Origin: Mesorhizobium sp.
GTDB lineage: Bacteria; Pseudomonadota; Alphaproteobacteria; Rhizobiales; Rhizobiaceae
Direction: 5' to 3'
Assembly: GCF_016793485.1 (NCBI RefSeq)
Contig: NZ_JAEULZ010000001.1
Coordinates: forward strand, 62,001-126,000
Length of the DNA stretch: 64,000 nt
Below the pieces are notes generated by a model that was given only the letters and a program-made list of their open reading frames with translations, was not told the origin of the DNA and did not search any database. Below are positions 37,436 to 64,000 of the stretch, piece after piece (the first letter of the stretch is position 1; each line of letters begins with the position of its first letter). Made by a program: the position numbers and the translations under genes.

Positions 37436-37454
37436 CGCCTACCGGAGAAAATGC

Positions 37455-38765: not shown

Positions 38766-38768
38766 GAG

Positions 38769-42071: not shown

Positions 42072-42079
42072 GAAGCACC

Positions 42080-43231: not shown

Positions 43232-43240
43232 ATCAAACGA

Positions 43241-43260
43241 CACAGGCCAGCCAGCCTGTG
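43241..43260 (+). terminator. intercistronic hairpin between fusion gene and permease
   Basis: CACAGGC (43241-43247) and GCCTGTG (43254-43260) form a perfect 7-bp stem with a 6-nt loop in the 61-nt spacer. No U-tract follows, so partial termination or RNA processing is more likely than a full stop; the permease gene starts 33 nt downstream with its own GGGAG. Confidence 0.45.
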
Positions 43261-43292
43261 CAGGGGAAATAAATTCAACGGGAGACAGTGAC

Positions 43293-49643: not shown

Positions 49644-50045
49644 ATGCAGGTTTCACCCCTTCTTGTTGCAGCCCTCGCGGGGCTGGTAGCAGTGCCGGCG
49701 ACAGCCGCCACGCAATCCTTTGAAGTTGCAGTCAAGAACACCGGCGAAACGGTGCTCGCGTGCGATGCATCGATAGCACATTGGTATTCAAATGCGCTCG
49801 GCGATGTCGAGCCGGGCGAAACGCTAAGGTTTGTCCTTCGCGCCGACGCTGCAAGCGGCGCGGTGTTCCTGCGCAACGACGTGGGCGATGACATGCCCGT
49901 GCAACGAGTCTGGTGCGGCCTGAAAGGCCAGAGCTGGGCAACGCGCGCCGAAATTTTACTGGAACGCCGGATTGGCGAGGTTCCCAAGGATATCGTCCTC
50001 GACTGCGCTGGCAAACCAACGGGAACTTCCTGCGCTCGTCCTTGA
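49644..50045 (+). CDS. small secreted protein, unrecognised
   Basis: A 133-residue exported protein with signal peptide (MQVSPLLVAALAGLVAVPAT, cleavage near ATA-A) and a mature beta-rich domain containing three Cys (LACDASI, VWCGLKG, LDCAGKP), suggesting one disulfide. It looks like a small periplasmic domain found in rhizobia with no assigned role. ATG 49644 begins the signal peptide; no good Shine-Dalgarno precedes it. Divergent from the BMP importer. A TATACT (49615-49620) upstream is a possible -10 box without a clear -35. Confidence 0.6.
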   Translation: MQVSPLLVAALAGLVAVPATAATQSFEVAVKNTGETVLACDASIAHWYSNALGDVEPGETLRFVLRADAASGAVFLRNDVGDDMPVQRVWCGLKGQSWATRAEILLERRIGEVPKDIVLDCAGKPTGTSCARP

Positions 50046-50166: not shown

Positions 50167-50278
50167 CGTACTACAATCGAAAACTTGCGCTGGTAGATTC
50201 CGTTGTCGTCAGACATCCTCGCCAGCCATATTGAGCGCGGGGCTTGGGTGCCTCGTCGGCTTATCTGGGAGCAGAGAC

Positions 50279-51046
50279 ATGCGTACAGCCATCGTGACCG
50301 GCGCGAGCCGTGGTCTTGGGCGCGCCTTCGCGATCGGCCTTGCCAAGGATGGCTTTGCGCTCAGTCTTGCCGCCCGTCAGGCCGATGAGCTGGAGGTCAC
50401 GGCGGAGCTTGCCCGTCTGGCCGGGTCGCCGCTGGTAGCGACGCATGCGATCGATCTGTCGCTGCCGGAGTCGCCGGCCTTGGTGGTCGAGCGGACGCTG
50501 GCCCAAACAGGCGGAATCGATGCTCTGGTTAACAATGCCGGCGCGACGAAACGTGGCGATTTCCTTGCGCTGTCGGATGACGATTTCCTGGATGGATTTG
50601 CCCTCAAATTTCACGCCACGGTCCGGTTCTGCCGGGCAGCCTGGGAAGCGCTGGCGGCAAGCCAGGGCGCCATCGTCAACATTTCCGGCGTCGGCGCCCA
50701 CACGCCGGAACCGGACTTCACCATCGGCGGCCCCGTGAATTCCGCGCTGATCAACTTTACCAAAGCGATCGCCAAGCGCGCCCGGGATACCGGCATGCGC
50801 ATCAACACCTTGTGCCCCGGCCACATCGTTACTGAACGTCTGCAGAAGCGCATCGACACGCTCGCGCGCGCAGAGGGTATTTCAGTGGAGGCCGCGCGGG
50901 AAAAAATGCGGATCGACCAGGGCATTGCTCGATATGGCGAGCCCGAGGAAGTAGCTGAGGTCGTACGCTTCCTTTGCAGCCCGGCCGCCGCCTATGTCCA
51001 CGGCACCGTCATCAATGTCGACGGCGGCGCAACGCCCGGCATCTGA
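50279..51046 (+). CDS. SDR-fold protein lacking the catalytic Tyr/Lys
   Basis: A 255-residue SDR with intact cofactor motif VTGASRGLGRA, VNNAGAT and Ser136 in NISGVG, and a normal C-terminus (GTVINVDGGATPG). Where YxxxK should stand the sequence reads IGGPVNSALINF: Gly150 replaces Tyr and Asn154 replaces Lys. The same GG-P-VN variant occurs in some other rhizobial SDRs, so it is not a sequencing artefact of a normal SDR. It may use a different acid/base mechanism or be a binding protein. ATG 50279 is chosen. Convergent with gntR and probably controlled by it. Confidence 0.85.
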   Translation: MRTAIVTGASRGLGRAFAIGLAKDGFALSLAARQADELEVTAELARLAGSPLVATHAIDLSLPESPALVVERTLAQTGGIDALVNNAGATKRGDFLALSDDDFLDGFALKFHATVRFCRAAWEALAASQGAIVNISGVGAHTPEPDFTIGGPVNSALINFTKAIAKRARDTGMRINTLCPGHIVTERLQKRIDTLARAEGISVEAAREKMRIDQGIARYGEPEEVAEVVRFLCSPAAAYVHGTVINVDGGATPGI

Positions 51047-51061: not shown

Positions 51062-51775
51062 TCAGGAGGTGGCTTCGGCCATCTCCTCGACCAGTCGCCC
51101 GCGCAGAATCTCGATCGCGACCTTGCCGGCATTCATGACGTGACGGGCGGCCGCCTTGCGGGCTTCCTTGCCGCGACGCGCAGCGAGGTGGCCGACGAGT
51201 TCCTCGAGTTCCTGCAGGCTTTCGCGCGTGCGTCCGGGGGCGCCGAGGGATGTTGCGCGGAGCACCATGACCCGCGCATTCAGCGATGACAGCGTGTGTC
51301 CGAGCGCTTCATTGTGCGCGCCGTCGATCAAGCAGTCGTAGAAGGCGTTTTTCGCCGTCAGCCGTTCGAGCGGATCGGAACTGCCAGCAGAGCGCTTCAA
51401 ACCTTCAAGCGCGCGCTTTAGCGCCTCGATGTCGGCGTCGGTTGCGTTGCGTGTGAACAATTCGCAGGCGAGCCCTTCCAGTTCGACGCGAACCTCGTAG
51501 ATGCCCTGCGCCTGCTCAGGCGTCAGTGTGGCGACGATCGGGCCACGATGCGGCACGACCTGGACGAGCCCCTCGCTCTCCAGTTGCCGCAAGGCTTCGC
51601 GGACAGCCGTGCGGCTCACCCCGGTCATCTCGCAAAGGTCCCGCTCCGTGATGCGCTGGCCGGCCGTGAAGTAGCCAAGCGCGATGGAGTTGCGGATGCT
51701 CTCGGTCACGCTGTGGCGAACCGGAGCGGCCGCCTTGGTGACCCTGAAATCGAGAGGCATAGCCTTGATGTTCAT
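51062..51775 (-). CDS. GntR-family regulator, FCD (FadR) subfamily
   Basis: A 237-residue regulator. The winged HTH (VTESIRNSIALGYFTAGQRI, LCEMTGVSRTAVREALRQLE) is followed by an all-helical FCD effector domain (GIYEVRVELEGLACELF, FYDCLIDGAHNEALGHTL) with His/Asp/Arg residues typical of metal-dependent carboxylate binding. The recognised ligands of FCD regulators are small carboxylic acids, fitting a pathway intermediate such as a pyridine carboxylate. The start M1 or M6 (51760) is uncertain. Candidate sites lie at 50157, 51832 and 57057. Confidence 0.92.
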   Translation of the reverse strand: MNIKAMPLDFRVTKAAAPVRHSVTESIRNSIALGYFTAGQRITERDLCEMTGVSRTAVREALRQLESEGLVQVVPHRGPIVATLTPEQAQGIYEVRVELEGLACELFTRNATDADIEALKRALEGLKRSAGSSDPLERLTAKNAFYDCLIDGAHNEALGHTLSSLNARVMVLRATSLGAPGRTRESLQELEELVGHLAARRGKEARKAAARHVMNAGKVAIEILRGRLVEEMAEATS

Positions 51776-51882: not shown

Positions 51883-53073
51883 TCAAACGGTCGAATCGAT
51901 CGACTTCATGACGGCCGAAACTCCGGCTCCGACATCGATTCCCTTGACTTCGAGGGCCTGAAGCCCGCCAGCGACGGCCGCAACCGAGACCAGTGAATAG
52001 ACCGGCCTGGCTGTCGGCCCCATGTGTCCGATGCGGATGAGCTTGCCCAGCGTCTCCGCCCGGCCGGACGACACCACGACGCCGTATCTGTCCCTTATGA
52101 TTGTGCGCAATGCCAGTTCATCAATCCCTTCCGGAATGCGGACGGCGGTGCAGGTCGGCGAGGCAATCTCCTCGCGCGCCGCCCAGAGCGACAGGCCCGC
52201 AGCCTTTATGCCCGCCCGGCAGGCGGCAGCGGTACGAGCGTGACGTTGCCAGACAGCCTCGTCGCCCTCGCACAGATAGAGATCGAGCGCGGCGTCGAGG
52301 GCGTTGATCTCCGAAACCGAAGGGGTGAACGGAAAGGGCTGGGTCGCTTCATGCGCGCGCCGCCAGTCAAGGATGGAGAGAATCGAAGCGCGGGGCGCGT
52401 CGGGGTTGGCTTCCATCTTTTCCCATGCCGCCTCACTGACATGGAGGAGTGACAGACCCGGTGGACAGCCCAGGCACTTGTTGGGGCCGGTGACGAAGAT
52501 GTCGGCATGGATTGGCTCCGGAAGCACGTCCATGCCGCCGAAGGATGATACGGCATCCACGATGAGCAGCTTGCCTGCGGCATGCACCGCGGCGCCGATT
52601 TCCTTAGCGGGATTTATGGTTCCCGACGGCGTATCGTGGTGGCAGAGCGCGACGACTGCGATGTCAGGGCGCTTGCGTAGCGCCTCGGCGACGGCGTCCG
52701 CCGTCAGCACTTCATTATAGGGGACGGCCAGTTCCACGACTTCCTTGGCGTAGCGGGCGGCCCAGTAGCCGAAGCCCTTGCCGTAGACGCCCGAGACTAG
52801 GTTCAGGATCACATCGCCCTTGGCGATCAGCGAAGCGGCCGCAGCTTCCAGCGCCAGGACGGGCTCGCCATGCAGGATGACGGGAGGCGTCGACGAACGA
52901 AACGCGCGCTGGACCTTTTCGTTGACCGCTTCGTACTGCGCCAGGAAGGCCGGGTCGTAGTCGTAGAGCACAGGTCGCGACAGGCCGCGCAACACGGCAG
53001 GGTAGGCGTCAACCGGGCCGGTCGTCAGCGTGAAGATCGGGTCGGGTATGGGCTTCTTGCTCACGGCTATCAA
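51883..53073 (-). CDS. ppaT: pyridoxamine-pyruvate aminotransferase
   Basis: A 396-residue class V aminotransferase-fold enzyme that converts pyridoxamine plus pyruvate to pyridoxal plus alanine, the entry step of vitamin B6 degradation. The sequence follows the Mesorhizobium loti enzyme closely from TLTTGPVDAYPAVLRG to the C-terminus. All residues I recall for its active site are present with a +2 offset: Glu70 (VILHGEP), Tyr97 (SGVYGKG), Lys199 (VTGPNKCLG), Arg338 (VVSSGRAE) and Arg347 (LIRIGHMGP), matching Glu68, Tyr95, Lys197, Arg336 and Arg345. The enzyme is unusual in using free pyridoxal as substrate without bound PLP. It ends an operon of lactonase, SDR, dehydrogenase and MmgE/PrpD genes. 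Confidence 0.9.
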   Translation of the reverse strand: MIAVSKKPIPDPIFTLTTGPVDAYPAVLRGLSRPVLYDYDPAFLAQYEAVNEKVQRAFRSSTPPVILHGEPVLALEAAAASLIAKGDVILNLVSGVYGKGFGYWAARYAKEVVELAVPYNEVLTADAVAEALRKRPDIAVVALCHHDTPSGTINPAKEIGAAVHAAGKLLIVDAVSSFGGMDVLPEPIHADIFVTGPNKCLGCPPGLSLLHVSEAAWEKMEANPDAPRASILSILDWRRAHEATQPFPFTPSVSEINALDAALDLYLCEGDEAVWQRHARTAAACRAGIKAAGLSLWAAREEIASPTCTAVRIPEGIDELALRTIIRDRYGVVVSSGRAETLGKLIRIGHMGPTARPVYSLVSVAAVAGGLQALEVKGIDVGAGVSAVMKSIDSTV

Positions 53074-53091
53074 CTCCTCGCCTTCGGCTCT

Positions 53092-54453
53092 TTATTGCGG
53101 CCGGGTCAGGGCCAGAAATGCTGCTCCGTCCTCGGCGTCCTCGATGCTCTCGATCGCTGCGACCAGCCTGCCAACGTCGAGTTGGAGGCCGCGCCATTCG
53201 ACCTGTGCGGCAAGCTTGGCGGCGAGCTCGGCATCGCTCATGGGCCGGGCGAGGCCGCCCTTGGCCGCGTCCACGGTGCGAGCGATTTCGCGGCCATCCG
53301 CGAAGCGCAGCAGCACCCGCGCGCTTTCCAGCGCATAGGTCGGATCGTCACGGAAACGCAGCCGGGCCGCAAAAGCACGCAATACGGGGTCGGCCACGCT
53401 TTCGTCGGAAAATGCATCGAGGTCGGCCTTGCCATGCAGCAGGCTGACGGCGACAGCGTGCTGCGCGCAGACTTGCGCGAGACGGCCGGAGGTGACGCCG
53501 GGACGGTCGGTGCGCTGGCGCAGCAGCGGATGCCCGGTAAGCTCGACCTCGACGATGTCGCGCGCGTCGAACCCGCCCTCGGCGTTGAGCGCGAGGCAGG
53601 CTTCGATCACAGGGTTCAGCACGACGCCGCAGGGATAGGGCTTGAAGGTGTTGTTCAGGATTTCCCAGCTTCTGCCGAGGCCTTCGGTCAGGCTGGCAGC
53701 GTCGGCGTGATCGCAATAGAGCGAAAAGAAGCCGCGTGCCCCTGTCAGCGGATGTCGCGGCCCGGTGTAGCCGCGTTCCGCGAGCAGCGCCGCCAGCAGG
53801 CCGCCGCGCGCTGCCTGTCCGACGCCGAGGCTCTTCGACATGGTGCCGAGCGTCTCGACGGACCCTGCTGCCTGCGCCAACGCGTTGCCGATCGCATCGA
53901 CCAATGCGGGAGGCGGCAGCTCAAGCAGGCGGCCGCAAGCGAGGGCGGCTCCGAAGATGCCGGCGGTCGAGGTGATGTGCCAGCCCCGCGCATAGTGAGC
54001 CTCACCTGCCGCGAGACCGAGTCGGCATGTGATTTCGACGCCGAGCACGAACGCTTCGAGCAGGGTCGCTCCACTGACAGGTCGCCCCAGTGCCGCACGA
54101 GCTTCGGCCAGCGCCAGAACGGCCGGGCCGACAGGTGCAGAAGGATGGACGACGGTCGGGATATGCGTGTCGTCGAAGTCGAAGATGTTGGCGGCGGCGG
54201 CGTTGATGCTGGCCGCCCACAACATGTCGGCGCGCTCCCTGCGGCCGACGAGCGTTGAGCCGTCCGCGCCGCCGAATTCTGCAGATAGTTCTACCAGTCG
54301 GTCTATCGCGGTCTCACCACTGCCGCCAATCGTGGTGCCGACCATATTGAGAAGCGAACGCCTGCCAGCCGCCCGAACCTCTTTAGGTAAGGCGGGCGGC
54401 GCGCTGACAAAGTCCGCCAGAACCTCTTCGGCAACCGGCTGGCTCGTGGTCAC
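53092..54453 (-). CDS. MmgE/PrpD-family protein
   Basis: A 453-residue member of the MmgE/PrpD family (2-methylcitrate dehydratase, aconitate decarboxylase, iminodisuccinate epimerase relatives). Seen: FDFDDTHIPTVVHPSAPVGP with the catalytic Asp/His region, GVEITCRLGLAAG, GWHITSTAGIFGAAL, KSLGVGQAARGGLLAALLA and FKPYPCGVVLNP. The family dehydrates, decarboxylates or epimerises small di- or tricarboxylates. In a ring-degradation operon it may process a ring-opened acid (inference). It abuts the dehydrogenase gene with no spacing and is 18 nt upstream of PPAT. Confidence 0.88.
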   Translation of the reverse strand: MTTSQPVAEEVLADFVSAPPALPKEVRAAGRRSLLNMVGTTIGGSGETAIDRLVELSAEFGGADGSTLVGRRERADMLWAASINAAAANIFDFDDTHIPTVVHPSAPVGPAVLALAEARAALGRPVSGATLLEAFVLGVEITCRLGLAAGEAHYARGWHITSTAGIFGAALACGRLLELPPPALVDAIGNALAQAAGSVETLGTMSKSLGVGQAARGGLLAALLAERGYTGPRHPLTGARGFFSLYCDHADAASLTEGLGRSWEILNNTFKPYPCGVVLNPVIEACLALNAEGGFDARDIVEVELTGHPLLRQRTDRPGVTSGRLAQVCAQHAVAVSLLHGKADLDAFSDESVADPVLRAFAARLRFRDDPTYALESARVLLRFADGREIARTVDAAKGGLARPMSDAELAAKLAAQVEWRGLQLDVGRLVAAIESIEDAEDGAAFLALTRPQ

Positions 54454-55353
54454 TCAGGCCCCCTTCGCCGTGGCCCGACGCACTTCGACGCTGGCCCAGC
54501 GTTCCAGCGGACGGATCACCGCCGTCATGTCTGCATCGGGACCGAAGTCCGCCTTGGTTATGGCAAACAGCATGCGCACCGCGTTGCCGACCATCATCGG
54601 CACACCGAGACGCTCGGCTTCTTCCAGGCAAAGGCGGATGTCTTTCAGCGACAACGAAATCGCGAAGCCGAAGTCGAAGGTACCCGGCAGGACGAAACGC
54701 GGAATCTTGTCGACGCTGGCCGAGGTGCGACCGCTTCCGGCATTCAGGACCTCGACCATGATGTCCGGGTCGAGCCCGGCCTTGGCGCCCATCACCATGG
54801 CCTCGCTGGTGATGGCCAGCGACGCTGCCGAGCAGATGTTGTTGATGAGCTTCATCACCTGCGCCTTGCCGGGTTCATCGGCAACGCGGATCACCTTACC
54901 CAGGGAGGTGAGCAGCGGCTCGACCACAGCGAAATGCTCCGCCGGCCCAGCGGCCATCAGGGCGAGCGAGCCCTTCTTCGCGCCGGCGACGCCGCCGGAA
55001 ACCGGGCTATCGACCAGCGCTATACCCGCGACGGCCAGGATGTCCGCAAGCTCCATCTCGCTCTTCGGGCCGGTCGTGGAGAGATCGACAACGCGCTTGA
55101 CCGAACCAGGGTTCGCCGCGATGGTCCTGCCGACGGCAAGTACGACTTCCGGCGTCGGCAGAGACAGGAAGATCGTCTCGACCTTGGCGGTCAGGGCTTC
55201 CAGAGTGGAGGCGGCGATCGCACCCGCGTTGACCACCTCGGCAATCGCCGTCTGCGATTTGTCGTACACCGTCGGGATGTGCCCGGCGCCGACCAATCGC
55301 AGCGCCATGGGGCCGCCCATGTTTCCCAGTCCGACGAAACCAATCTCGCTCAC
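54454..55353 (-). CDS. 3-hydroxyisobutyrate dehydrogenase-family NAD(P) oxidoreductase
   Basis: A 299-residue beta-hydroxyacid dehydrogenase. Seen: GFVGLGNMGGPMALRLV (NAD(P) motif), VDSPVSGGVAGAKKGSL (substrate-binding), the catalytic Lys in GKAQVMKLINN, and DFGFAISLSLKDIRLCLEEA in the C-terminal domain. It would oxidise a 3-hydroxy acid or reduce a semialdehyde such as a ring-fission product. Its stop directly adjoins the MmgE/PrpD start, so both are translationally coupled. Confidence 0.9.
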   Translation of the reverse strand: MSEIGFVGLGNMGGPMALRLVGAGHIPTVYDKSQTAIAEVVNAGAIAASTLEALTAKVETIFLSLPTPEVVLAVGRTIAANPGSVKRVVDLSTTGPKSEMELADILAVAGIALVDSPVSGGVAGAKKGSLALMAAGPAEHFAVVEPLLTSLGKVIRVADEPGKAQVMKLINNICSAASLAITSEAMVMGAKAGLDPDIMVEVLNAGSGRTSASVDKIPRFVLPGTFDFGFAISLSLKDIRLCLEEAERLGVPMMVGNAVRMLFAITKADFGPDADMTAVIRPLERWASVEVRRATAKGA

Positions 55354-55379
55354 ATCACTCTCCTTGCGCGGTCGCCGCC

Positions 55380-56162
55380 TCAGGCGAACGACCAGCCGTT
55401 ATCCACCGGTATCGCTGCGCCGTTGATGCCCTCGCTCTGCGGCCCGCAAAGGAAAAGCGCCAGCGCAGTCACCGTCTCGATCGGGATGAACTTGCCGCCC
55501 GGCTGTCGCGTCGAGAGGAAGAGGGCCGTCGCCTCCTCCTTGTCGATGTTCTTCTCGGCAGCCAGCGCATCGATGCGGGCAAGCGCGCTGTCGGTCGCCA
55601 TCAAGCCCGGGCAGATCGCATTGCAGGTTATCCGCGTTGCGGCCAGTTCCAGCGCCACCGTGCGCGTCAGGCCGATCATGGCATGTTTCGTCGTCACGTA
55701 GTCGACGCGACCGGCGAGCGCGATCAGGCTGTAGACTGATGCCATGTTGATGATGCGGCCCCAGCCGCGCTCCTGCATGCTCGGCACGCATGCGCGACTC
55801 AGACGGAATGGAGCGGAGAGATTGACTTCCATGGCCCGATTCCAGTCGGCGTCGCCGAGCGCTGCGACAGGCGACATTTTCCTGATGACGGCATTGTTCA
55901 CCAGAATGTCGATGCCGCCCATGGCTTCGGAGGCCTGTGCTGCAAGTCTTTCCGACGCGCCATCTCCGGCAAGATCGATGACAGCAGAGCCGAGCGCCCT
56001 GCCGGTCTCGGCGGAAAGCATCGCTGTCGCGTCGGTTACAGCAGGCGAGATGTCGGTGAGGAACACCGTGTCACCGGCGGTGGCGAAGGTGCGGGCGAGC
56101 GCCAGGCCAAGTCCGGTGGCGGATCCGGTGACCAGCACCCTGCGGGCAGCCTCGGCATTCAT
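55380..56162 (-). CDS. SDR dehydrogenase, candidate pyridoxal 4-dehydrogenase
   Basis: A 260-residue SDR with TGSATGLGLALARTF cofactor motif, VNNAVIRK, Ser in INMASVYS and catalytic Tyr/Lys in YVTTK. The C-terminal half (EKNIDKEEATALFLSTRQPG) resembles 3-hydroxybutyrate dehydrogenases. In Mesorhizobium loti an SDR next to PPAT and a lactonase oxidises pyridoxal to 4-pyridoxolactone, and the same neighbours occur here. Identity to that enzyme is not obvious, so the role is inferred from context. ATG 56162 overlaps the lactonase stop by 4 nt; 26 nt separate it from the next gene. Confidence 0.7.
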   Translation of the reverse strand: MNAEAARRVLVTGSATGLGLALARTFATAGDTVFLTDISPAVTDATAMLSAETGRALGSAVIDLAGDGASERLAAQASEAMGGIDILVNNAVIRKMSPVAALGDADWNRAMEVNLSAPFRLSRACVPSMQERGWGRIINMASVYSLIALAGRVDYVTTKHAMIGLTRTVALELAATRITCNAICPGLMATDSALARIDALAAEKNIDKEEATALFLSTRQPGGKFIPIETVTALALFLCGPQSEGINGAAIPVDNGWSFA

Positions 56163-57010
56163 CGCGAAAGCTCTTGCCAAGAAAGCACCGGCGGCTCGTC
56201 CAGGCGTACAACGATGCCATTGAGCGACGGATCGGGAGCGCGGTAGGCGCGCGTCACCGCAGGATCGTGTCCCGGCACGATGTGGTCGAGGCTCGGGGCG
56301 AGCGCCTTCAGCCGCTCGAAGCCTGCAAGGAGCGCCTGCTGGTCGAAGAAGATGGGGAAGGGGTTCTTTTGCGCCATATTGGCGTAGAGATGCGTGGCGT
56401 CGGATGCGACGATGACCCATCCGCGTTTGGTGAAAACCCGCACAGACTGCAGCCCGGCCGTATGACCCGGAATCCTGTGAAGCCAGAGGCCGGGCGCGAG
56501 TCGAACGTCGCCGTCGTGAAAGGTGACACGCCCGGCGTAGAGGCTGCGCACATAGTCGACGATGTTCTCCACGTCGAAGGTGGCCCTCGTCCTCGGGTCG
56601 CAGATGCAGGGACCGGTGGCGTAGGCGGCCTCGGCGACCTGAATGTGGAACTGTGCCTTGGGGAAATCGGTCAGCGTGCCCGCGTGGTCGTAATGGAGGT
56701 GGGTGACGATCACTTGGTCGACTTCCGCCGCATCGACCCCGAGCAGCTTCAGCGTATCAGCAGGCTTGCGCAGCAGCGTGCGCCCACGCGCTGCGGCGGC
56801 GGCTTGCGCAAAGCCGGTATCGATGACGTAGACTTCCTCGCCGCGGCGGGCGAGCCAGATAAAATAGTGCAGGTCTGCGCCAGCCTCATGAGGATCGGCG
56901 TGGAGAAAATTATCGCTCTGCTTGCGGCCCGTGTGCACGGCGTAGTGAAGGGCATAGAGTTCGAAGGGCGAAAGCGCCTCATCGTCCTCGATAGCACCAG
57001 CCTCAACCAT
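56159..57010 (-). CDS. metallo-beta-lactamase-fold lactonase, candidate 4-pyridoxolactonase
   Basis: A 283-residue hydrolase of the N-acyl homoserine lactonase branch of the MBL superfamily. Seen: VTHLHYDHAG with His104, His106, Asp108 and His109 for two zinc ions, RIPGHTAGLQSVRV (His ligand), ASDATHLYANM (Asp ligand) and HIVPGHDP (His ligand). 4-Pyridoxolactonase of M. loti is from the same branch, so with an SDR and PPAT downstream it may open 4-pyridoxolactone; a quorum-quenching role is the alternative. It is the first gene of the leftward operon, 178 nt from the divergent rightward operon. Confidence 0.78.
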   Translation of the reverse strand: MVEAGAIEDDEALSPFELYALHYAVHTGRKQSDNFLHADPHEAGADLHYFIWLARRGEEVYVIDTGFAQAAAAARGRTLLRKPADTLKLLGVDAAEVDQVIVTHLHYDHAGTLTDFPKAQFHIQVAEAAYATGPCICDPRTRATFDVENIVDYVRSLYAGRVTFHDGDVRLAPGLWLHRIPGHTAGLQSVRVFTKRGWVIVASDATHLYANMAQKNPFPIFFDQQALLAGFERLKALAPSLDHIVPGHDPAVTRAYRAPDPSLNGIVVRLDEPPVLSWQELSR

Positions 57011-57056
57011 TGCCTTACCCGCTTGTCCGTCCCGCCCGGTTCGCGGCTCATGTTCA

Positions 57057-57079
57057 GTATGACCGTATTCCTGTCATAC
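57057..57079. promoter_or_regulatory. inverted repeat operator in the divergent promoter of the two ring-degradation operons
   Basis: GTATGAC and GTCATAC (57057-57063 and 57073-57079) form a perfect 7-bp inverted repeat with a 9-nt spacer. The arm GTATGAC also occurs at 51834 before gntR. TTGACA (57086-57091) and TCTAAC (57108-57113), spaced 16 nt, form a plausible promoter for the rightward operon just downstream. The site is well placed to control both the lactonase-PPAT and the HpaB-NicX operons. Confidence 0.6.
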
Positions 57080-57188
57080 AATCTGTTGACAGGTCAAGGA
57101 TGGCATGTCTAACTCGTGCCAGATGCACCAGCGATATCTCGATCGCTATATCGTTCGAACTCAGTCCAACTTCGTACCGGAGAGATAC

Positions 57189-57602
57189 ATGACTCGTCCC
57201 GAATTCCAAGGCGAGCAATTCGAGAGGGGGCTGAAGGTTCGCAGGGAGGTTCTGGGCGAAGCATACGTCAATACGTCGCTCGCAAGCGCCGATGAATTGA
57301 CCGCTCCGCTGCAGAAGCTGGTCACCGAATGGTGCTGGGGCGAAATCTGGAACCGGCCCGGACTCGAACGCAAGACCCGGAGCCTGCTCAATCTCGGCAT
57401 GCTGACCGCCCTCAATCGTCCGCACGAGGTAAAGCTTCATGTGCGCGGCGCGATAAACAACGGTGTTACGGAGCAGGAGATCATCGAAGTGATCCTGCAG
57501 GCTGCCATCTATTGCGGGGTTCCTGCCGCGCTCGATGCGCAGCGCGTCGCCGTGGAAGTCATCCGCCAGATGCGTACGGAGAAATCCGCAGACGCCGGCT
57601 GA
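57189..57602 (+). CDS. carboxymuconolactone decarboxylase-family protein
   Basis: A 137-residue CMD-fold protein. Seen: WCWGEIWNRPGLERKTRSLL, LNLGMLTALNRPHEVKLHVR and VTEQEIIEVILQAAIYCG, the family's helical core with the Glu/His pair of gamma-carboxymuconolactone decarboxylase. ATG 57189 has GGAG about 6 nt upstream; it begins at the usual leader. It may decarboxylate a lactone or unsaturated acid from the ring pathway, or act as a redox-active AhpD-like protein; the CxxC of AhpD is absent. First gene of the rightward operon. Confidence 0.85.
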   Translation: MTRPEFQGEQFERGLKVRREVLGEAYVNTSLASADELTAPLQKLVTEWCWGEIWNRPGLERKTRSLLNLGMLTALNRPHEVKLHVRGAINNGVTEQEIIEVILQAAIYCGVPAALDAQRVAVEVIRQMRTEKSADAG

Positions 57603-57680
57603 CGATATCAGTTCATCGCCCGGGGAGCGCTGCGCAACAAGGCTGCCTCCGGGTCTACCGAATTCAATGGGAGACCTGCC

Positions 57681-59168
57681 GTGACACAGGCAAAAGCAAA
57701 AAGCCCGCTCGACAAGCCGCACAAGCTCCGGAGCGGCGCGGAATACAAGGAGTCGCTGCGCGACAATCGCCAGATCTGGGTGGGTGGGCGCAAGCTGTCC
57801 AGCGTCTATGACGAACCGGCGCTGGCGAAGGGCATCGACCTGCTCGCGACCATGTTCGACGACCAGTTCACCGAAGAGCACGCTGGCGCGACGACCTATT
57901 TCGATAAGGATGCCGGCGCGGTCGTCAGCCGCTCTTGGCAGATTCCGCGCACGAAGGAAGACCTCGCAGACCGCCGCAAGATGATCGAGTACACCTCGCT
58001 CAAGACGGCCGGCACCTTCGGTCGCCCGCCGGACTTGGCCCCGGCCATCGTCGTCGGCCTCTATGCCTATCTGCCGACCTTCAAGAAGAAGAAGTCATTG
58101 ATCGAGGGCGTCGATCCGGACTTCGCCGAGAATATCGAGCGCTACCTCGAGTACGGCCGCGACAACAACGTGACTGCCTCGGAAAGCCTGGCGGGTCCTC
58201 AGGCCGACCGGTCGTCGCCGACGGCCGGCGAAGCCTCGCTGCTGAAGGCGCGCAAGGTAACCAAGGACGGTATCTACATCTATGGCGCCAAGACCGTTGG
58301 CTCGATCTCGGCACAGGCAAACGACATCTTCTTCACGAATCTCGGCGGTATCCAGGACACTCCGGCAGATGCTTGCATCTGGGGATCGATCCCGATCGAG
58401 ACCGACGGCATCAAGATGATCTCGCGCGAGATGGTGTCGCAGCCCGAATCCAGCTCGTTCGACCATCCGGTTTCGAGCCTAGGCGAGGAAGCCGACCAGT
58501 TTATCGTCTTCGATAATGTCTTCGTGCCGAAGGAGCGCCTGTTCAACCTCGGCGATCCGACAGCGATGAGCTACTACGGTCCAGTCTGCGTATTCGCACA
58601 CTGGCACGTGCTCACCCGCCTCGCGGTGAAGGCGGAGCTTTTTGTCGGCGCCGGCCAGATGGTGCTCGACTATCTCGGGACCGGTCGGATCCCAGCGGTG
58701 CAGATGATGCTCGGCCAGCTGATCGAGTATGCGCAGACGTTGCGTGCTTTCGTTGCCGCAGCCGAGGCGCTGGCGACGCCGACGGAAGGCGACGTGATGC
58801 GCCCGGATGTCGGCATGCTGACGGCTGGCCGCCTCTACTCGATCGAGCAATATCCGAAAATCATCCATATCCTACAGGAAATGTGCGGCCAGGGTCTGGT
58901 CATGCGGTTCGGCAAGGAGGCTTTCGACAATCCCGATGTCGGCCACTACTTGCACGAACTGCTGCCTGGCCACGGCGTCAGCGCGATGGTCAAGGAACAG
59001 CTGATGAACTTCATCTGGGACATGACCTCCGGCTCGCTTGCCGGTCGTGTCGCGCTGTTCGAAAACGTCAACGCCACGCCGGCGCCGGCGCTTCGGGCAC
59101 GCCTGTACAATGAAGTGAAGCGCGACGCTTACGTCGCGCAGGTCAAGAAGATCGCCGGCATCGAATGA
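57681..59168 (+). CDS. HpaB-type FADH2-dependent aromatic monooxygenase
   Basis: A 495-residue member of the 4-hydroxyphenylacetate 3-hydroxylase (HpaB/PvcC) family. Seen: RSGAEYKESLRDNRQIWVGG, SLKTAGTFGRPPDLAPAIV, the flavin region KTVGSISAQANDIF, and the C-terminal GVSAMVKEQLMNFIWDMTSG. These enzymes hydroxylate rings using reduced flavin from a partner such as HpaC, and a flavin reductase is in this operon (62353-62874). GTG 57681 is the start; GGGAG is 8 nt before it. A substrate of the pyridine type is inferred from PPAT and NicX neighbours. Confidence 0.9.
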   Translation: MTQAKAKSPLDKPHKLRSGAEYKESLRDNRQIWVGGRKLSSVYDEPALAKGIDLLATMFDDQFTEEHAGATTYFDKDAGAVVSRSWQIPRTKEDLADRRKMIEYTSLKTAGTFGRPPDLAPAIVVGLYAYLPTFKKKKSLIEGVDPDFAENIERYLEYGRDNNVTASESLAGPQADRSSPTAGEASLLKARKVTKDGIYIYGAKTVGSISAQANDIFFTNLGGIQDTPADACIWGSIPIETDGIKMISREMVSQPESSSFDHPVSSLGEEADQFIVFDNVFVPKERLFNLGDPTAMSYYGPVCVFAHWHVLTRLAVKAELFVGAGQMVLDYLGTGRIPAVQMMLGQLIEYAQTLRAFVAAAEALATPTEGDVMRPDVGMLTAGRLYSIEQYPKIIHILQEMCGQGLVMRFGKEAFDNPDVGHYLHELLPGHGVSAMVKEQLMNFIWDMTSGSLAGRVALFENVNATPAPALRARLYNEVKRDAYVAQVKKIAGIE

Positions 59169-59226
59169 TCGCTGACACCGCGCCTGCCGACCGGTGGGCG
59201 CGGAAGAGGCCGGACTGGATTGTGCC

Positions 59227-59616
59227 ATGGACCACGCCGCGCTCATCGACCGCTTCTACGCCGCCTATGCCGGTCGTGACGCCGACGGCGCGGCGGCGCT
59301 CTATCATGCCGATGGCTGGCATGAGGAAGTAGCGATGGCCAAGCGGCGTCAGGGCACGGATGCGCTGGCCGAGGGGCTGCGAGGCTTCTGGCGCATGCTG
59401 CCCGATGTCACGTGGGAACGCCGCAGCTATGTCCGTGCCGGCAACACGGTGGCGGTTCCCTATCGCATGACTGGCACCTTCACCCCGAAGGGCGAGGGTG
59501 GGACGCCAAAGCCGATCGCTCTCGACGGTCTGCATCTTTTCGAGATACGCGACGGACTGCTCGCCGGAACCCGCGACATGTGGGATCTGGACCTGTTCCG
59601 CGCGCAGATGGGCTAG
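59227..59616 (+). CDS. SnoaL/NTF2-like small protein
   Basis: A 129-residue NTF2-fold protein. Seen: ALIDRFYAAYAGRDADGAAA and ALYHADGWHEEVAMAKRR, GTDALAEGLRGFWRMLPDVT, and LHLFEIRDGLLAGTRDMWDL, matching ketosteroid-isomerase/SnoaL-like proteins. It could isomerise or hydrate a small ring product, but no catalytic residue set is diagnostic. ATG 59227 is preferred; GTG 59194 is an alternative that overlaps nothing useful. It lies 58 nt after HpaB and 6 nt before the first amidase. Confidence 0.78.
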   Translation: MDHAALIDRFYAAYAGRDADGAAALYHADGWHEEVAMAKRRQGTDALAEGLRGFWRMLPDVTWERRSYVRAGNTVAVPYRMTGTFTPKGEGGTPKPIALDGLHLFEIRDGLLAGTRDMWDLDLFRAQMG

Positions 59617-59622
59617 TGGCAG

Positions 59623-61041
59623 ATGAACGGTCTCGCTGAACTCGACGGCATCGCGCTTGCGGCGCTGATCGCCAAGGGCGAGGTCAGCGCGTCTGAGGTG
59701 GTCGAAGCATCGATCGAGCGCGCCGAGCGGCTGAACCCCGTCCTGCATGCTGTCGTGCATCCATATTACAACCTCGCGCGCGAGCAGGTATTGCGCGGGC
59801 TGCCCAAAGGCCCGCTCTCGGGCGTGCCGATGCTGCTGAAGAACACGGGCTTCGAAGCCGAGGGGATGCTGCTCTCGACCGGCTCCGAACTGCACCGCCA
59901 TACTGTCAGCACGCGCGATTCAACGATCACCGCCCGTTACAAGGCTGCCGGCATGGTCATCATCGGCCGCAGCAACACGCCTGAGTTCGCGCTGAGCTTC
60001 ACCACCGAGCCGGAGGCTTTCGGGCCGACCCACAATCCATGGGACAACACCCGCACGCCGGGCGGGTCGTCGGGCGGCTCGACAGCCGCCGTTGCGAGCG
60101 GGATCGTGCCACTCTCCAACAGTTCGGACGGCGCGGGCTCGACGCGGTTGCCGGCCAGCCATTGCGGCGTGTTCGGCCTGAAGCCGTCGCGGCTGGTCAA
60201 TCCCGTCGGCCCTATAGCTGCCGAGGTGCTTGGCGGCATGTCGACTCCGCATGCGGTCAGCCGGTCGGTGCGCGACAATGCGGCCATGCTCGACGTCACC
60301 TCCGGAGCCGACCTCGGCGACGCCTGGGCGTCGCCGGCCCGGCCCGGCACCTATCTCGCCGCCCTCGATGCGCCGCTGCCCCGGCTGAAGATCGCGATGT
60401 TGCTGAAACCGCCGCTAGGCAGCGAGATCGACGCGGAAGTGCTCGAACAGGTGCGCGCCGTTGCCCGGTTGCTCGAAAGCCTCGGCCATCATGTCATCGA
60501 AATAGACGACGCCGGCTATGACGCGGAAAACCTCAAGACTGCATGGCGCATCGTTGCCGGCGTCGGCATCGGGCTCGGTGTCGCCGGCGGCGATCCGCAG
60601 TCGCCCAACCTCGCCAAGCTGGAACACGTGAACCGGGAGTGGGCGCGCGAAGGCATCGCGACCCCGGCAACGCGATACGCCTGGGCGATCGGCCAGGTGC
60701 AGGCCACATCGCGCGCCATGGGCCGGTTCTTCGCGCAGCACGATATCATGCTGACGCCGAGTGCCGCCGAACCGGCGCCAAAGCTCGGCAAGCTCGCCGG
60801 CAAGGGCAAGGACGTCGACACGTTCTACGACCTGTTCTGGTCGCATTCGCCTTTCACCGCAGTCTTCAATTCGTCCGGCTGTCCAGCAATGAGCGTGCCG
60901 CTCGGCATGAGCGCTGGTGGCTTGCCGATCGGCGTGCATTTCGGCGCGGGATTCGGCAAGGACGCCCTGCTGCTGCAACTCGCCGCCGAACTCGAGCGCG
61001 CCGCTCCGTGGGCGATACGCCGCCCGCCGATCTTCGGCTGA
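59623..61041 (+). CDS. amidase signature-family hydrolase (first of two)
   Basis: A 472-residue amidase with the Ser-cisSer-Lys triad: Lys73 (PMLLKNTG), cis-Ser149 (PGGSSGGST) and nucleophile Ser173 (DGAGSTRLPAS), spaced as in family members. It hydrolyses a carboxamide to acid plus ammonia. In ring-cleavage of 2,5-dihydroxypyridine the products N-formylmaleamate and maleamate are handled by NicD and NicF, which are of other folds and missing here, so the two amidases may substitute (inference). It is separated by 16 nt from its tandem partner. Confidence 0.9.
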   Translation: MNGLAELDGIALAALIAKGEVSASEVVEASIERAERLNPVLHAVVHPYYNLAREQVLRGLPKGPLSGVPMLLKNTGFEAEGMLLSTGSELHRHTVSTRDSTITARYKAAGMVIIGRSNTPEFALSFTTEPEAFGPTHNPWDNTRTPGGSSGGSTAAVASGIVPLSNSSDGAGSTRLPASHCGVFGLKPSRLVNPVGPIAAEVLGGMSTPHAVSRSVRDNAAMLDVTSGADLGDAWASPARPGTYLAALDAPLPRLKIAMLLKPPLGSEIDAEVLEQVRAVARLLESLGHHVIEIDDAGYDAENLKTAWRIVAGVGIGLGVAGGDPQSPNLAKLEHVNREWAREGIATPATRYAWAIGQVQATSRAMGRFFAQHDIMLTPSAAEPAPKLGKLAGKGKDVDTFYDLFWSHSPFTAVFNSSGCPAMSVPLGMSAGGLPIGVHFGAGFGKDALLLQLAAELERAAPWAIRRPPIFG

Positions 61042-61057
61042 GGGACGGTAGCGCGCC

Positions 61058-62356
61058 ATGCAGAACGCTGAAATCCTATCGCTGACCGCCAGACAGATGG
61101 CCGCGTCCGTCGCGGCCGGAAGCCTGACCGCCCGCGAAGTGGCCGAGGCGCATCTCGAACGCATCGCCGAGGCTGACGGCCCCGTGATGGCGTGGCAGCA
61201 TCTCGATCCTGCGCAGGTGAGAGCCGACGCCGACCGCCTTGATGCGAATTACGCCTCCGGTCCGCTTGCAGGCGTGCCGCTCGGCGTGAAAGACGTAATC
61301 GAGACCGCCGACATGCCGACGGGCTACGGCGCGACGATGTATGATGGTTTCCAGCCGCTCTGGGATGCGCCCTGCGTCCAGATCGCCAGGAATGCCGGCG
61401 CCATGGTGATGGGCAAGACGGTCAGCACCGAGCTTGCCATGGCGAGCCCGAACAAGACCCGCAATCCCCACAATCCAGCGCATACGCCGGGCGGTTCGTC
61501 GTCCGGTTCCTGTGCCGCAGTGGCGGCGGGCATGGTGCCGCTTGCCTTCGGCACTCAGACTTCCGGCTCGGTGATCCGGCCGGCGAGTTTTTGCGGCGTG
61601 ACGGCGCTGAAGCCGACCTTTGGACTGATCAACACCGTGGGCATCAAGGTGCTCTGCCACGGCCTCGATACGCTGGGCATCATCGCACGTGACATCGGCG
61701 ATGCCGCGGCCTGCGCGTCGGTCCTGTCGGGGCGTGCGGAACTGGCCGATCTTTCGGCGCCGAAGCGTCCGCGTTTCGGCGTGTTGCTCGGCACGCGGCT
61801 GGAGAAGGCTGAGCCTTCCACCATCGACGCCGTCGAACGGCTTGCGCGCCTTGCCGACAGCGCGGGCGCCGAGGTGGTCACGATCCCTGCGCCGGAATGG
61901 TTCGACGGCATTTTCGATCTCCACGAGGCCGTCATGGGCTGGGAGGTCACGCAGTCGCTCGCCTATGAAATTGGCGAACGCTGGAACGAGTTGACGCCGG
62001 TCACGCGCGCGATGCTCGAAGACCAGGGTCGCGTGACGGAGGATCGCTATCGCGCCGCGATGCAGGTCCTGCCGGGCATGCGTCATATCTTGGACGCGCT
62101 GGTGTCGCGCTTCGACGCCGTGCTGACGCTTGCCGCACCGGGAGAGGCGCCGGAAGGCACTGCGACCGGCGACCCGATCTACAACAGGCTTTGGAGCGTG
62201 CTGCAGGTTCCGCTGGTGGCGCTGCCTGTGGCGAAAGGCCCTCGCGGGCTGCCCGTCGGCGTGCAGCTTGTCGGCGCGCGCGGCGAGGACCACCGGCTCG
62301 CTTCGGCTGCTCTCTTCCTCGAGAACTGCGTTGCGGCGCAGGGAGGCCCCAAATGA
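61058..62356 (+). CDS. amidase signature-family hydrolase (second of two)
   Basis: A 432-residue amidase with Lys78 (PLGVKDV), cis-Ser147 (PGGSSSGS) and nucleophile Ser171 (TSGSVIRPAS). It differs from the upstream amidase in length and in its binding region, so the two probably act on different amides in sequence rather than being a recent duplication. It overlaps the flavin reductase gene by 4 nt. Confidence 0.9.
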   Translation: MQNAEILSLTARQMAASVAAGSLTAREVAEAHLERIAEADGPVMAWQHLDPAQVRADADRLDANYASGPLAGVPLGVKDVIETADMPTGYGATMYDGFQPLWDAPCVQIARNAGAMVMGKTVSTELAMASPNKTRNPHNPAHTPGGSSSGSCAAVAAGMVPLAFGTQTSGSVIRPASFCGVTALKPTFGLINTVGIKVLCHGLDTLGIIARDIGDAAACASVLSGRAELADLSAPKRPRFGVLLGTRLEKAEPSTIDAVERLARLADSAGAEVVTIPAPEWFDGIFDLHEAVMGWEVTQSLAYEIGERWNELTPVTRAMLEDQGRVTEDRYRAAMQVLPGMRHILDALVSRFDAVLTLAAPGEAPEGTATGDPIYNRLWSVLQVPLVALPVAKGPRGLPVGVQLVGARGEDHRLASAALFLENCVAAQGGPK

Positions 62357-62874
62357 TTCACTCCAAGCCTCCTGCTGATCCGCTGGTGCATGATTTCCGC
62401 GCCGCCATGCGCCAGCTTGCGGCTACGGTCTGCGTGGTCACAGCCGGCAAGGATGACGCAAGACGCGGACTGACCGCGACCGCAGTGTGCTCGCTCTCCA
62501 TCACGCCGCCGTCGATGCTGGTCTGCGTCAACAGGCAGGGCGCGGCGCATCGCGCGATCACGGAAAACGGCTGCTTCTGCGTCAATATCCTCGCTGCCGA
62601 CCAGATGGACGTTGCTCACCGGTTTGCGGGTCAGGCAGGCGATATCGGCGAAGGCAAGTTCGCCATCGGTCACTGGAGCCATCTTACCACAGGCGCACCG
62701 GCGCTGGATGGCGCGCTCGTCAATCTCGACTGCACGCTTTCCTCCGATGTCGAGACCGAGAGCCACAGCATCTTCATCGGTCATGTTCAGCAGGTCAGGT
62801 TCGGCGATACGAAATCGCCGCTGCTGCACTACGACCGCCACTTCTTCTCCCTCGAAAATCAGACAGCACTTTAG
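62353..62874 (+). CDS. HpaC-type flavin reductase
   Basis: A 173-residue flavin reductase-like FMN-binding protein. Seen: VHDFRAAMRQLAATVCVVTA, GLTATAVCSLSITPPSMLVC, FCVNILAADQMDVAHRFAGQ and LLHYDRHFFSL. It would supply FADH2 or FMNH2 to the HpaB-type monooxygenase 4 genes upstream. The N-terminal 163 residues of the 42.1-kb fusion protein belong to the same family. ATG 62353 overlaps the amidase stop (ATGA). Confidence 0.9.
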   Translation: MIHSKPPADPLVHDFRAAMRQLAATVCVVTAGKDDARRGLTATAVCSLSITPPSMLVCVNRQGAAHRAITENGCFCVNILAADQMDVAHRFAGQAGDIGEGKFAIGHWSHLTTGAPALDGALVNLDCTLSSDVETESHSIFIGHVQQVRFGDTKSPLLHYDRHFFSLENQTAL

Positions 62875-62921
62875 CCGCAATTTAGGTCGCCTACGCGGCG
62901 CACGACAGAAGGATCGCAGGC

Positions 62922-63965
62922 ATGGCAATCAGCGACATTCAATTCTTCCAGGGCTGGAAGCAGGTGCTCGGCATGTGCAACCTGAAGCCCGGCGAGCAGG
63001 TCACGATCCTCACCAGCGATGACAGCAACCAGCAGATCGCCAACATCGCGCGGCTCGCTGCGGCCGACATGGGAGCCATCGTCAGCGTGCTGAACCTCGC
63101 GCCGATGAACGGCGAGAAGGCGATCTCGCGCGACAAATCGGGCTACATCGGCAAGACGCCGCTGGAGGGCAACACGGCCGCGCTCGCCTGCCTGAAGGCG
63201 TCCGACATGGTGATCGACACGATCCAGCTTCTGTTCTCCAAGGAGCAGGAGGAAGTGCTGAAGACCGGCGCGCGCATGCTGCTGGCAGTCGAGCCGCCGG
63301 AGGTCATGATGCGCATGATCCCGACGCCGGAGGACAAGGCGCGTGTGCTTGCGGCTGCGAAGAAGATTGGCGCTGCGAAGAAGATGACGGTCAAGTCCGC
63401 CGCCGGCACGGATTTCAGCTGTGATATCGGGCAGTATCCCGTGCTGACGCAGTACGGCCTTGCCGACGAACCCGGCCGCTGGGACCATTGGCCGAGCTGC
63501 TTCGCTGCAACCTGGCCTGACGAGGGCAGCGCCGAGGGAACGATCGTCATCGATGAGGGCGACATCCTGCTGCCGTTCAAGATGTACGCGCGCGATCCGA
63601 TCACCGTGACCATCGAGAAGGGCATTATCCGCGACATCAAGGGCGGCTTCGACGCCGAGTTCATGCGGAAGTTCATGGAAAGCTTCAACGATCCGCGCGC
63701 CTATGCGATGGCGCATGTCGGCTGGGGTCTTCACACGCGCGCGCACTGGACGGTGCTCGGCCTCTACAATCCGGAGGCGCAACTCGGCATGGACGCGCGT
63801 TCCTTTGCCGGCAATTTCCTCTGGTCGTCGGGCCCGAACACCGAGGCCGGCGGCGACCGCGATGTGCCGTGCCATCTCGACATTCCGTTGCGCAACTGCT
63901 CGCTATCACTCGACGGCGAGGCGATGACGATCGACGGACGGGTCGTCAACGAAGACCAGCGCTAG
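62922..63965 (+). CDS. NicX-type 2,5-dihydroxypyridine 5,6-dioxygenase homologue
   Basis: A 347-residue enzyme of the NicX family. His265 (AHVGWGLHTR), His318 and Asp320 (CHLDIPLRNC) fall at the very residue numbers given for the Fe2+ ligands of P. putida NicX, and length is the same, so an extradiol-type opening of a dihydroxypyridine ring is strongly suggested. AGGATCGCAGGC precedes the ATG. It belongs with the HpaB monooxygenase, flavin reductase and amidases, giving a plausible hydroxylate-cleave-hydrolyse sequence. The natural substrate may be a substituted ring; this cannot be read from the sequence. Confidence 0.85.
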   Translation: MAISDIQFFQGWKQVLGMCNLKPGEQVTILTSDDSNQQIANIARLAAADMGAIVSVLNLAPMNGEKAISRDKSGYIGKTPLEGNTAALACLKASDMVIDTIQLLFSKEQEEVLKTGARMLLAVEPPEVMMRMIPTPEDKARVLAAAKKIGAAKKMTVKSAAGTDFSCDIGQYPVLTQYGLADEPGRWDHWPSCFAATWPDEGSAEGTIVIDEGDILLPFKMYARDPITVTIEKGIIRDIKGGFDAEFMRKFMESFNDPRAYAMAHVGWGLHTRAHWTVLGLYNPEAQLGMDARSFAGNFLWSSGPNTEAGGDRDVPCHLDIPLRNCSLSLDGEAMTIDGRVVNEDQR

Positions 63966-63969
63966 AACC

Positions 63970-64000
63970 ATGTCGCACTATGACTTGGCGATCGTCGGCG
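63970..64000 (+). CDS. FAD/NAD(P)-binding oxidoreductase, 3' truncated by window end
   Basis: An ATG four bases after the NicX stop begins MSHYDLAIVG, the usual opening of FAD-dependent monooxygenases and related Rossmann flavoproteins. Only ten codons are visible. In NicX-type operons a salicylate-hydroxylase-like FAD monooxygenase (NicC) is expected here, but the fragment is too short to assign. Confidence 0.5.
   Translation, partial: MSHYDLAIVG

Follow-up and report, generated by a model that had tools for sequence, protein, structure and literature searches.

A probable vitamin B6 catabolic locus in Mesorhizobium with a non-classical lower route predicted from HpaB-like and NicX-like enzymes

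According to PMC6253932, the bacterial breakdown of vitamin B6 known in detail is the Pseudomonas and Mesorhizobium route to succinic semialdehyde (here pathway I). Within the nicotinate (nic) cluster of Pseudomonas putida, the dioxygenase NicX binds iron through H265, S302, H318 and D320, contacts its substrate through E177, H189, L104 and H105, and cleaves between C5 and C6 (PMC7910607). In TftD and HadA, hydroxylation takes place at C4, para to the phenol, with His289 and His290 respectively named as the base (PMC8342789 and PMC3431827). Here we describe a 64,000-nucleotide stretch of Mesorhizobium sp. DNA (contig NZ_JAEULZ010000001.1, positions 62,001 to 126,000; hereafter the window), part of a 5.21 Mb genome in 52 contigs, in which a gene for pyridoxamine-pyruvate aminotransferase (PPAT) lies beside genes for an HpaB-like oxygenase, a NicX-like dioxygenase and two amidases. 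From gene content and conservation, we consider it probable that this locus serves vitamin B6 catabolism and that its lower route is non-classical.

Entry to pyridoxal by PPAT and pyridoxine 4-oxidase (PNOX) is common to this locus and to pathway I of Mesorhizobium loti and Pseudomonas. A putative B6 ABC transporter (NF047927 to NF047930; 44834-49551) is encoded, each of its four subunits scoring above its equivalog cut-off, and a transporter of this type is likewise common to the source locus and a classical-type locus, L091. The presence of PPAT, proposed in the initial annotation, is borne out by a score above the equivalog cut-off (Table 1) and by a match to PDB chain 2z9u, which we take to be the M. 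loti PPAT (the depositors' name for the chain is aspartate aminotransferase). The PPAT motifs TGPNKCLG, SSGR and RIGHMG, which presumably carry the lysine and arginines of the active site, were all found. The PNOX gene, encoding a GMC oxidoreductase, begins 4 bases after the stop codon of the NicX-like gene and continues past the window edge to contig position 127523, so that all but 31 of its bases lie outside the window; its product matches the pyridoxine 4-oxidase chain 4ha6, which we take to come from M. loti. Given these matches, uptake by a B6-type transporter and the predicted conversion of both pyridoxine and pyridoxamine to pyridoxal are well supported, and with the transporter and PNOX the vitamin B6 reading of the locus is firmer than the window alone could show. 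A further candidate B6 family model, NF047924, was dropped as its family is that of a type VI secretion system effector.

The main sign that the ring-directed module and the B6 genes share a function is that they are kept together through rearrangement. The HpaB-like protein was scanned against one genome per species using short peptide patterns, which recover close relatives only, and the resulting 54 loci were sorted by local tblastn with 20 query genes. Group A comprises 44 loci with HpaB at least 70% identical, 40 of which are at least 17 kb (termed long), while group B comprises 10 loci (8 long) with HpaB 54-65% identical. Counting presence at 40% identity or above, PPAT, PNOX and NicX were each found in 40 of the 40 long group A loci and the B6 substrate-binding protein (SBP) in 39, together with amidase 1 and amidase 2 (38 each), the SnoaL-like protein (36), the flavin reductase (35) and a carboxymuconolactone-decarboxylase-family (CMD) protein (24). 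PPAT identity ranges from 58 to 87% across these loci. The core five genes (SBP, PPAT, PNOX, HpaB and NicX) occur in four arrangements, represented by 16, 13, 8 and 2 loci; one locus without SBP in the compared stretch was counted apart. The four short group A loci (4.7 to 11.6 kb), left out of these counts, contain PNOX in two cases and PPAT in none. By tree labels, the carriers are Rhizobiaceae, Brucellaceae (Ochrobactrum type), Xanthobacteraceae, Pleomorphomonadaceae, Stappiaceae, Roseobacteraceae and Paracoccaceae.

The NicX-like protein aligns with PDB chain 7cn3 over residues 1-344 of both proteins and is approximately 52% identical to P. putida NicX. The initial annotation had described it as a NicX-type dioxygenase with exact iron ligands. 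This holds for the ligands, all four of which (H265, S302, H318 and D320) are kept in 43 of 43 sequences, namely our own and 42 from group A; the remaining two group A loci contribute no NicX, there being none in the stretch compared. The protein is, however, not simply NicX. Position 177, the substrate-binding glutamate, is Gln in all 43 and Glu in 7/7 nic-type proteins, with His189 kept. The nic-type set consists of P. putida and six plasmid loci with nic neighbours, from nine plasmid loci hand-picked among 50 listed of 202 records; Glu177 is also present in 3/3 other plasmid proteins. Positions 193, 264 and 336 likewise split the 43 from the seven, Gly193 and Ser264 of P. putida NicX being replaced by Cys and Ala in every member of the 43. 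Cys193 is additionally found in a Peribacillus protein and Ala264 in one Variovorax protein. In a tree of 64 rows, the 43 sequences occupy one branch with support of 100/99. The substitution H105F was rejected as a mark of this clade, Phe also occurring in four of the seven nic-type proteins.

The degree of identity to P. putida NicX might suggest a nicotinate pathway joined to B6 salvage, and the two systems do have in common the dioxygenase family, its length, the four iron ligands and ring opening followed by amide-hydrolysing enzymes. We give this explanation very little credence. The six nic-type plasmid loci pair nicX with an FAD monooxygenase, an Asp/Glu racemase-type gene, an alpha/beta hydrolase and an isochorismatase-type or N-carbamoylsarcosine-type amidase, whereas none of that set was seen in the present cluster, in which HpaB and amidase-signature amidases accompany the dioxygenase instead (no genome search was aimed at nicotinate hydroxylase). 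Furthermore, E177 is changed, and when two PF01494 proteins of the genome were compared with PDB chains, the NicC chain (6-hydroxynicotinate 3-monooxygenase) was the best match for neither (62.7 bits for one; 113.3 bits, behind salicylate-type enzymes, for the other).

Two observations were made among the plasmid loci. On a Peribacillus plasmid (L133, 2190-6008), an alpha/beta hydrolase gene accompanies an HpaB-type gene, which is annotated as two pieces, and a NicX-like gene whose product has Glu177 and Cys193. Two Variovorax NicX homologues (L128 and L129) lie near Rieske oxygenase genes and not near a NicC-type monooxygenase, a hint of further routes for pyridines.

The HpaB-like protein possesses both the N and C domains of its family and has a linked flavin reductase, as found in two-component monooxygenases. 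Comparison with PDB chains gave 204.6 bits each for a 4-hydroxyphenylacetate 3-hydroxylase and a 4-nitrophenol 4-monooxygenase, 192.7 bits for chlorophenol-4-monooxygenase component 2 and 188.7 bits for 2,4,6-trichlorophenol 4-monooxygenase; a further 4-hydroxyphenylacetate 3-hydroxylase, 2yyk, fell below these four with 169.9 bits. We took the two chlorophenol chains to be TftD and TcpA, as their residue numbers agree with the paper (Ile292, Ala293). Counted along the alignment, His307 of the HpaB-like protein coincides with His289 of TftD, and the corresponding H-x-H motif was present in 43 of 44 group A reads, the exception being a fragment of 209 residues. By alignment, the HpaB-like enzyme keeps the predicted catalytic histidine of its para-hydroxylating relatives. 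It shares with TftD, TcpA and HadA the HpaB fold family, this histidine and a linked flavin reductase. It differs in its low scores, 183.5-204.6 bits, to the six solved members that match best, one of the top two carrying the name 4-hydroxyphenylacetate 3-hydroxylase, and in its predicted substrate, a 3-hydroxypyridine from which neither halide nor nitro group would leave.

The initial annotation had also proposed that a short-chain dehydrogenase/reductase (SDR) and a metallo-beta-lactamase-fold (MBL) protein complete the classical route from pyridoxamine to 4-pyridoxate. The scores do not bear this out. On the pyridoxal 4-dehydrogenase model (NF047923; cut-off 325), the SDR reached 125.8, and it came nearer to a 3-hydroxybutyrate dehydrogenase subfamily (230.4 against 258), and the MBL protein scored 54 against a cut-off of 325 for 4-pyridoxolactonase. 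At 40% identity, both are missing from 23 of the 40 long related loci. Nor were the three classical markers found over cut-off elsewhere in the genome: the best scores were 197.3 against 325 for SDR-type pyridoxal 4-dehydrogenase (68 of 68 candidates scored), 51.4 against 325 for 4-pyridoxolactonase, where the local MBL protein was the top scorer, and 162.2 against 500 for FHMPC 5-dehydrogenase. MHPC oxygenase, which we take to belong to PF01494, was approached through the six proteins of that family. Two of these scored over ubiquinone-hydroxylase models and four over none among the NCBIfam rows listed. Of the two compared with PDB chains, one met MHPC oxygenase at about 60 bits with a best stretch of 81 residues, and the other matched salicylate-type monooxygenases and relatives above 1e-20, with no MHPC oxygenase among them. 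Thus, no evident MHPC oxygenase was seen among the six proteins (six by NCBIfam and two by PDB, the MHPC oxygenase itself not serving as a query). The absence is firm for the three markers and indirect for MHPC oxygenase.

These scores bear on the possibility that pathway I operates here through enzymes of divergent sequence, 4-pyridoxate being made by the SDR and MBL proteins while the NicX module acts on a side substrate. The pair is of the right broad folds, the MBL protein carries the motif HLHYDH, and direct queries covered three markers but not MHPC oxygenase, HMPDC decarboxylase or AAMS hydrolase, the first of which was addressed through the PF01494 survey. Set against the distance of both proteins from their models, the low genome-wide scores and the outcome of that survey, this explanation appears distinctly improbable.

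Comparison across genomes showed that the module and the classical markers largely exclude each other. PPAT scored over its cut-off in 8 of 385 genomes of the class, including the source genome; in the other seven, no HpaB-like or NicX-like gene was found in the 15 to 30 kb around PPAT, a local check only. A total of 48 genomes was then considered: the source genome, these seven and 40 group A genomes. FHMPC dehydrogenase (E up to 1e-90) was found in 0 of 41 genomes with the NicX-type module and in five of the seven other PPAT genomes, over the cut-off in three. The SDR-type pyridoxal dehydrogenase exceeded its cut-off in 0/41 against 4/7, and the lactonase in 1/41 against 5/7. In L091, which has PPAT, three of the classical genes exceed their cut-offs (415.3 over 325, 484.3 over 325 and 500.6 over 500). 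A motif search in six of the seven other PPAT genomes found no MHPC-oxygenase-like protein near PPAT.

Two further loci, L092 and L093 (genomes G263 and G037), possess PPAT and the B6 transporter, with the three classical markers below cut-off and HpaB and NicX absent nearby. They contain genes like the AMP-forming ligase and 2-dehydropantoate-reductase-like genes of L091, judged by first residues, and maybe represent a third kind of B6 locus.

Several observations weigh against the main reading, B6 catabolism by a non-classical lower route. Gln177 is shared by all 10 group B proteins, and the HpaB-linked NicX of Peribacillus keeps Glu177; E177Q is consequently not by itself a mark of B6. The H-x-H motif is likewise found in 12 of 12 group B reads. 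The HadA authors limit conservation of the histidine to enzymes capable of dehalogenation or denitration as well (PMC8342789), yet neither reaction is needed in the proposed route. One lactonase, in the genome of L063 (Actibacterium naphthalenivorans), scored just over the cut-off (339.9 against 325), six more of the 41 genomes have sub-cut-off lactonase matches (E up to 1e-20), and the zeros for FHMPC and pyridoxal dehydrogenase are slightly soft because only part of the candidates was scored in larger genomes (e.g. 44 of 105). Two long group A loci, L051 and L052, are without both amidases and the reductase at 40% identity, and three others are without the reductase. Finally, the MBL, SDR, 3-hydroxyisobutyrate-dehydrogenase-like (HIBADH-like) and PrpD-like genes are each found in only 17 of the 40 long loci.

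A rival reading is that the module degrades another N-heterocycle and stands beside the B6 uptake and entry genes by chance. HpaB-NicX loci without PPAT or PNOX do exist, neither gene giving a match in any of the 10 group B loci (two on short contigs), and amidase 1 is present at 40% identity or above in six of the eight long group B loci. In addition, according to the NicX paper, 2,5-dihydroxypyridine is the sole substrate reported (PMC7910607). Nevertheless, PPAT and PNOX are retained in every long group A locus through four arrangements, the NicX clade with B6 context is single, and classical markers are rare or missing in the genomes that carry the module. We therefore regard chance neighbourhood as unlikely.

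The HpaB-NicX pairs without PPAT or PNOX (L072, L074-L077, L080 and L084-L087) belong to eight Pseudomonadota and two Actinomycetota. In two Neorhizobium genomes, such a pair shares a contig with a nearby B6 locus that is without amidases of its own.

A non-classical lower route of hydroxylation, NicX-type ring opening and amide hydrolysis, as suggested in the initial annotation, is plausible from gene content and conservation. The vitamin would be taken up by the B6-type ABC transporter, PNOX would convert pyridoxine to pyridoxal, and PPAT would convert pyridoxamine and pyruvate to pyridoxal and alanine. The ring substrate may be either pyridoxal itself or 4-pyridoxate. The HpaB-like enzyme, supplied with reduced flavin by the linked reductase, would hydroxylate the 3-hydroxypyridine ring at C6; on chemical grounds we infer that, as C6 is para to the hydroxyl, the product would present the 2,5-dihydroxypyridine pattern required by NicX enzymes. 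The NicX-like enzyme would then split the ring at C2-C3 and, because C2 bears a methyl group, the product would be an N-acetyl amide and not the N-formylmaleamate of nicotinate catabolism. The two amidases would free acetate and ammonia, thereby standing in for NicD and NicF. No maleate-isomerase-type gene was seen in the cluster (a genome-wide search was not made), which fits a substituted acid.

The branched acid left over may close to a butenolide, which the CMD-family protein may decarboxylate; the MBL lactonase may open a lactone, and the PrpD-like and HIBADH-like enzymes would act next, perhaps to give succinic semialdehyde. Genes for CMD, lactonase-like, hydratase-type and HIBADH-like proteins recur in two lineages, the source locus and Ancylobacter (L054), the latter with a PcaD-like hydrolase in place of MBL and a crotonase-like protein in place of PrpD-like. 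This recurrence weakly suggests a lactone stage late in the route. These late steps are assigned only tentatively, as 23 of the 40 loci have no SDR, MBL, PrpD-like or HIBADH-like gene at 40% identity. The same 23 loci raise the possibility, to which we would assign somewhat less than an even chance, that pyridoxal itself is the ring substrate, being hydroxylated at C6 and opened at C2-C3 by a re-specialised NicX so that pyridoxal dehydrogenase, pyridoxolactone and pyridoxate are bypassed. This is suggested because these loci are without local SDR and MBL and because, in their genomes, the classical dehydrogenase exceeded its cut-off in none of the 23 (only part of the candidates being scored in larger genomes) and the classical lactonase was not found over cut-off in 22.

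Beyond the entry to pyridoxal, the locus thus departs from pathway I: the SDR-type pyridoxal 4-dehydrogenase, 4-pyridoxolactonase and FHMPC dehydrogenase all lie below cut-off, MHPC oxygenase is not evident, and the ring chemistry is assigned to a two-component monooxygenase and a NicX-like dioxygenase. No report of an HpaB/NicX-type B6 route was found among the literature matches listed (titles and abstract openings, with few subscription journals covered). The families are known, and their joint use on B6 appears to be new. If correct, this would be a second gene-level B6 route, distributed over the seven families named above, with ring opening by enzyme families for which the literature searched gave no B6 link. 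It would also correct the automatic annotation, present in one record, of the NicX-like gene as 2,5-dihydroxypyridine 5,6-dioxygenase, and provide the NicX family with a second kind of substrate.

The genes named in the initial annotation (51883..63965) all proved to be open frames at their coordinates. They form two tightly packed, divergent rows pointing away from 57011-57188. The leftward row comprises MBL, SDR, HIBADH-like, PrpD-like and PPAT; the rightward row comprises CMD, HpaB-like, SnoaL-like, amidase 1, amidase 2, flavin reductase and NicX-like. The placing of the monooxygenase with its reductase, the dioxygenase and two amidases in one row was confirmed by their families and by the 7cn3 match (Table 1). 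ATGA overlaps occur at the MBL/SDR and amidase 2/reductase junctions. Neither amidase matched an improvised pattern for the third residue of the triad.

Table 1. Features of the B6 locus, with window coordinates and the matches on which the names rest.
Feature	Position	Strand	Evidence and remarks
Putative B6 ABC transporter permease 1	44834..45766	-	NF047928 496.5 bits, cut-off 465
Putative B6 ABC transporter permease 2	45785..46873	-	NF047929 516 bits, cut-off 400
Putative B6 ABC transporter ATP-binding protein	46870..48450	-	NF047930 755 bits, cut-off 670
Putative B6 ABC transporter substrate-binding protein (BMP family)	48511..49551	-	NF047927 483.5 bits, cut-off 400
Small exported-looking protein, unknown family	49644..50045	+	No Pfam or NCBIfam match
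SDR-family oxidoreductase (SDR2)	50276..51046	+	Pfam adh_short; in 17/40 long group A loci
GntR-family regulator	51062..51775	-	NCBIfam GntR-type matches, all below cut-off
Pyridoxamine-pyruvate aminotransferase (PPAT)	51883..53073	-	NF046070 649.5 bits, cut-off 600; 2z9u 542 bits
MmgE/PrpD-family protein	53092..54453	-	PF03972 199 bits, PF19305 83 bits
3-Hydroxyisobutyrate-dehydrogenase-like enzyme	54454..55353	-	PF03446, PF14833; all NCBIfam models below cut-off
SDR, 3-hydroxybutyrate-dehydrogenase-like, not classical pyridoxal 4-dehydrogenase	55380..56162	-	Start by ATGA overlap; models run on 55380-56174
Metallo-beta-lactamase-fold, lactonase-like protein with HLHYDH	56159..57010	-	PF00753; motif
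Carboxymuconolactone-decarboxylase-family (CMD) protein	57189..57602	+	PF02627 (run on 57186-57602); longer frame from 57105, PcaC model 147, cut-off 155.7 (run from 57105)
HpaB-like oxygenase component	57681..59168	+	PF11794, PF03241
SnoaL-like protein	59194..59616	+	PF12680; in 36/40 long group A loci
Amidase-signature amidase 1	59623..61041	+	PF01425 277 bits; GGSSGGS and Lys73
Amidase-signature amidase 2	61058..62356	+	PF01425 221 bits; GGSSSGS and Lys78
Flavin reductase	62353..62874	+	PF01613 142 bits (run on longer frame 62191-62874); start at ATGA overlap with amidase 2 stop
NicX-like ring-cleavage dioxygenase, B6-associated clade	62922..63965	+	397 bits to 7cn3
Pyridoxine 4-oxidase, first 31 bases in window	63970..64000	+	825 bits, E 2.4e-247 to 4ha6

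The small protein at 49644-50045 adjoins the B6 substrate-binding gene and SDR2. Relatives were found in 39 of the 40 long group A loci and also, weakly, in L091, L092 and L093, the PPAT loci without HpaB and NicX.

A second gene row in the window (36383-44729, + strand) encodes a NicX-superfamily protein 32% identical to the B6-clade NicX-like protein, with all four iron-ligand positions kept and Thr at position 177. The row also encodes an acyl-CoA-dehydrogenase-like protein, an alpha/beta hydrolase with a cyclase-like domain, a glutamine-synthetase-like ligase, a flavin reductase fused to a LysR substrate domain and an amino-acid permease, and perhaps represents another N-heterocycle or amine pathway.

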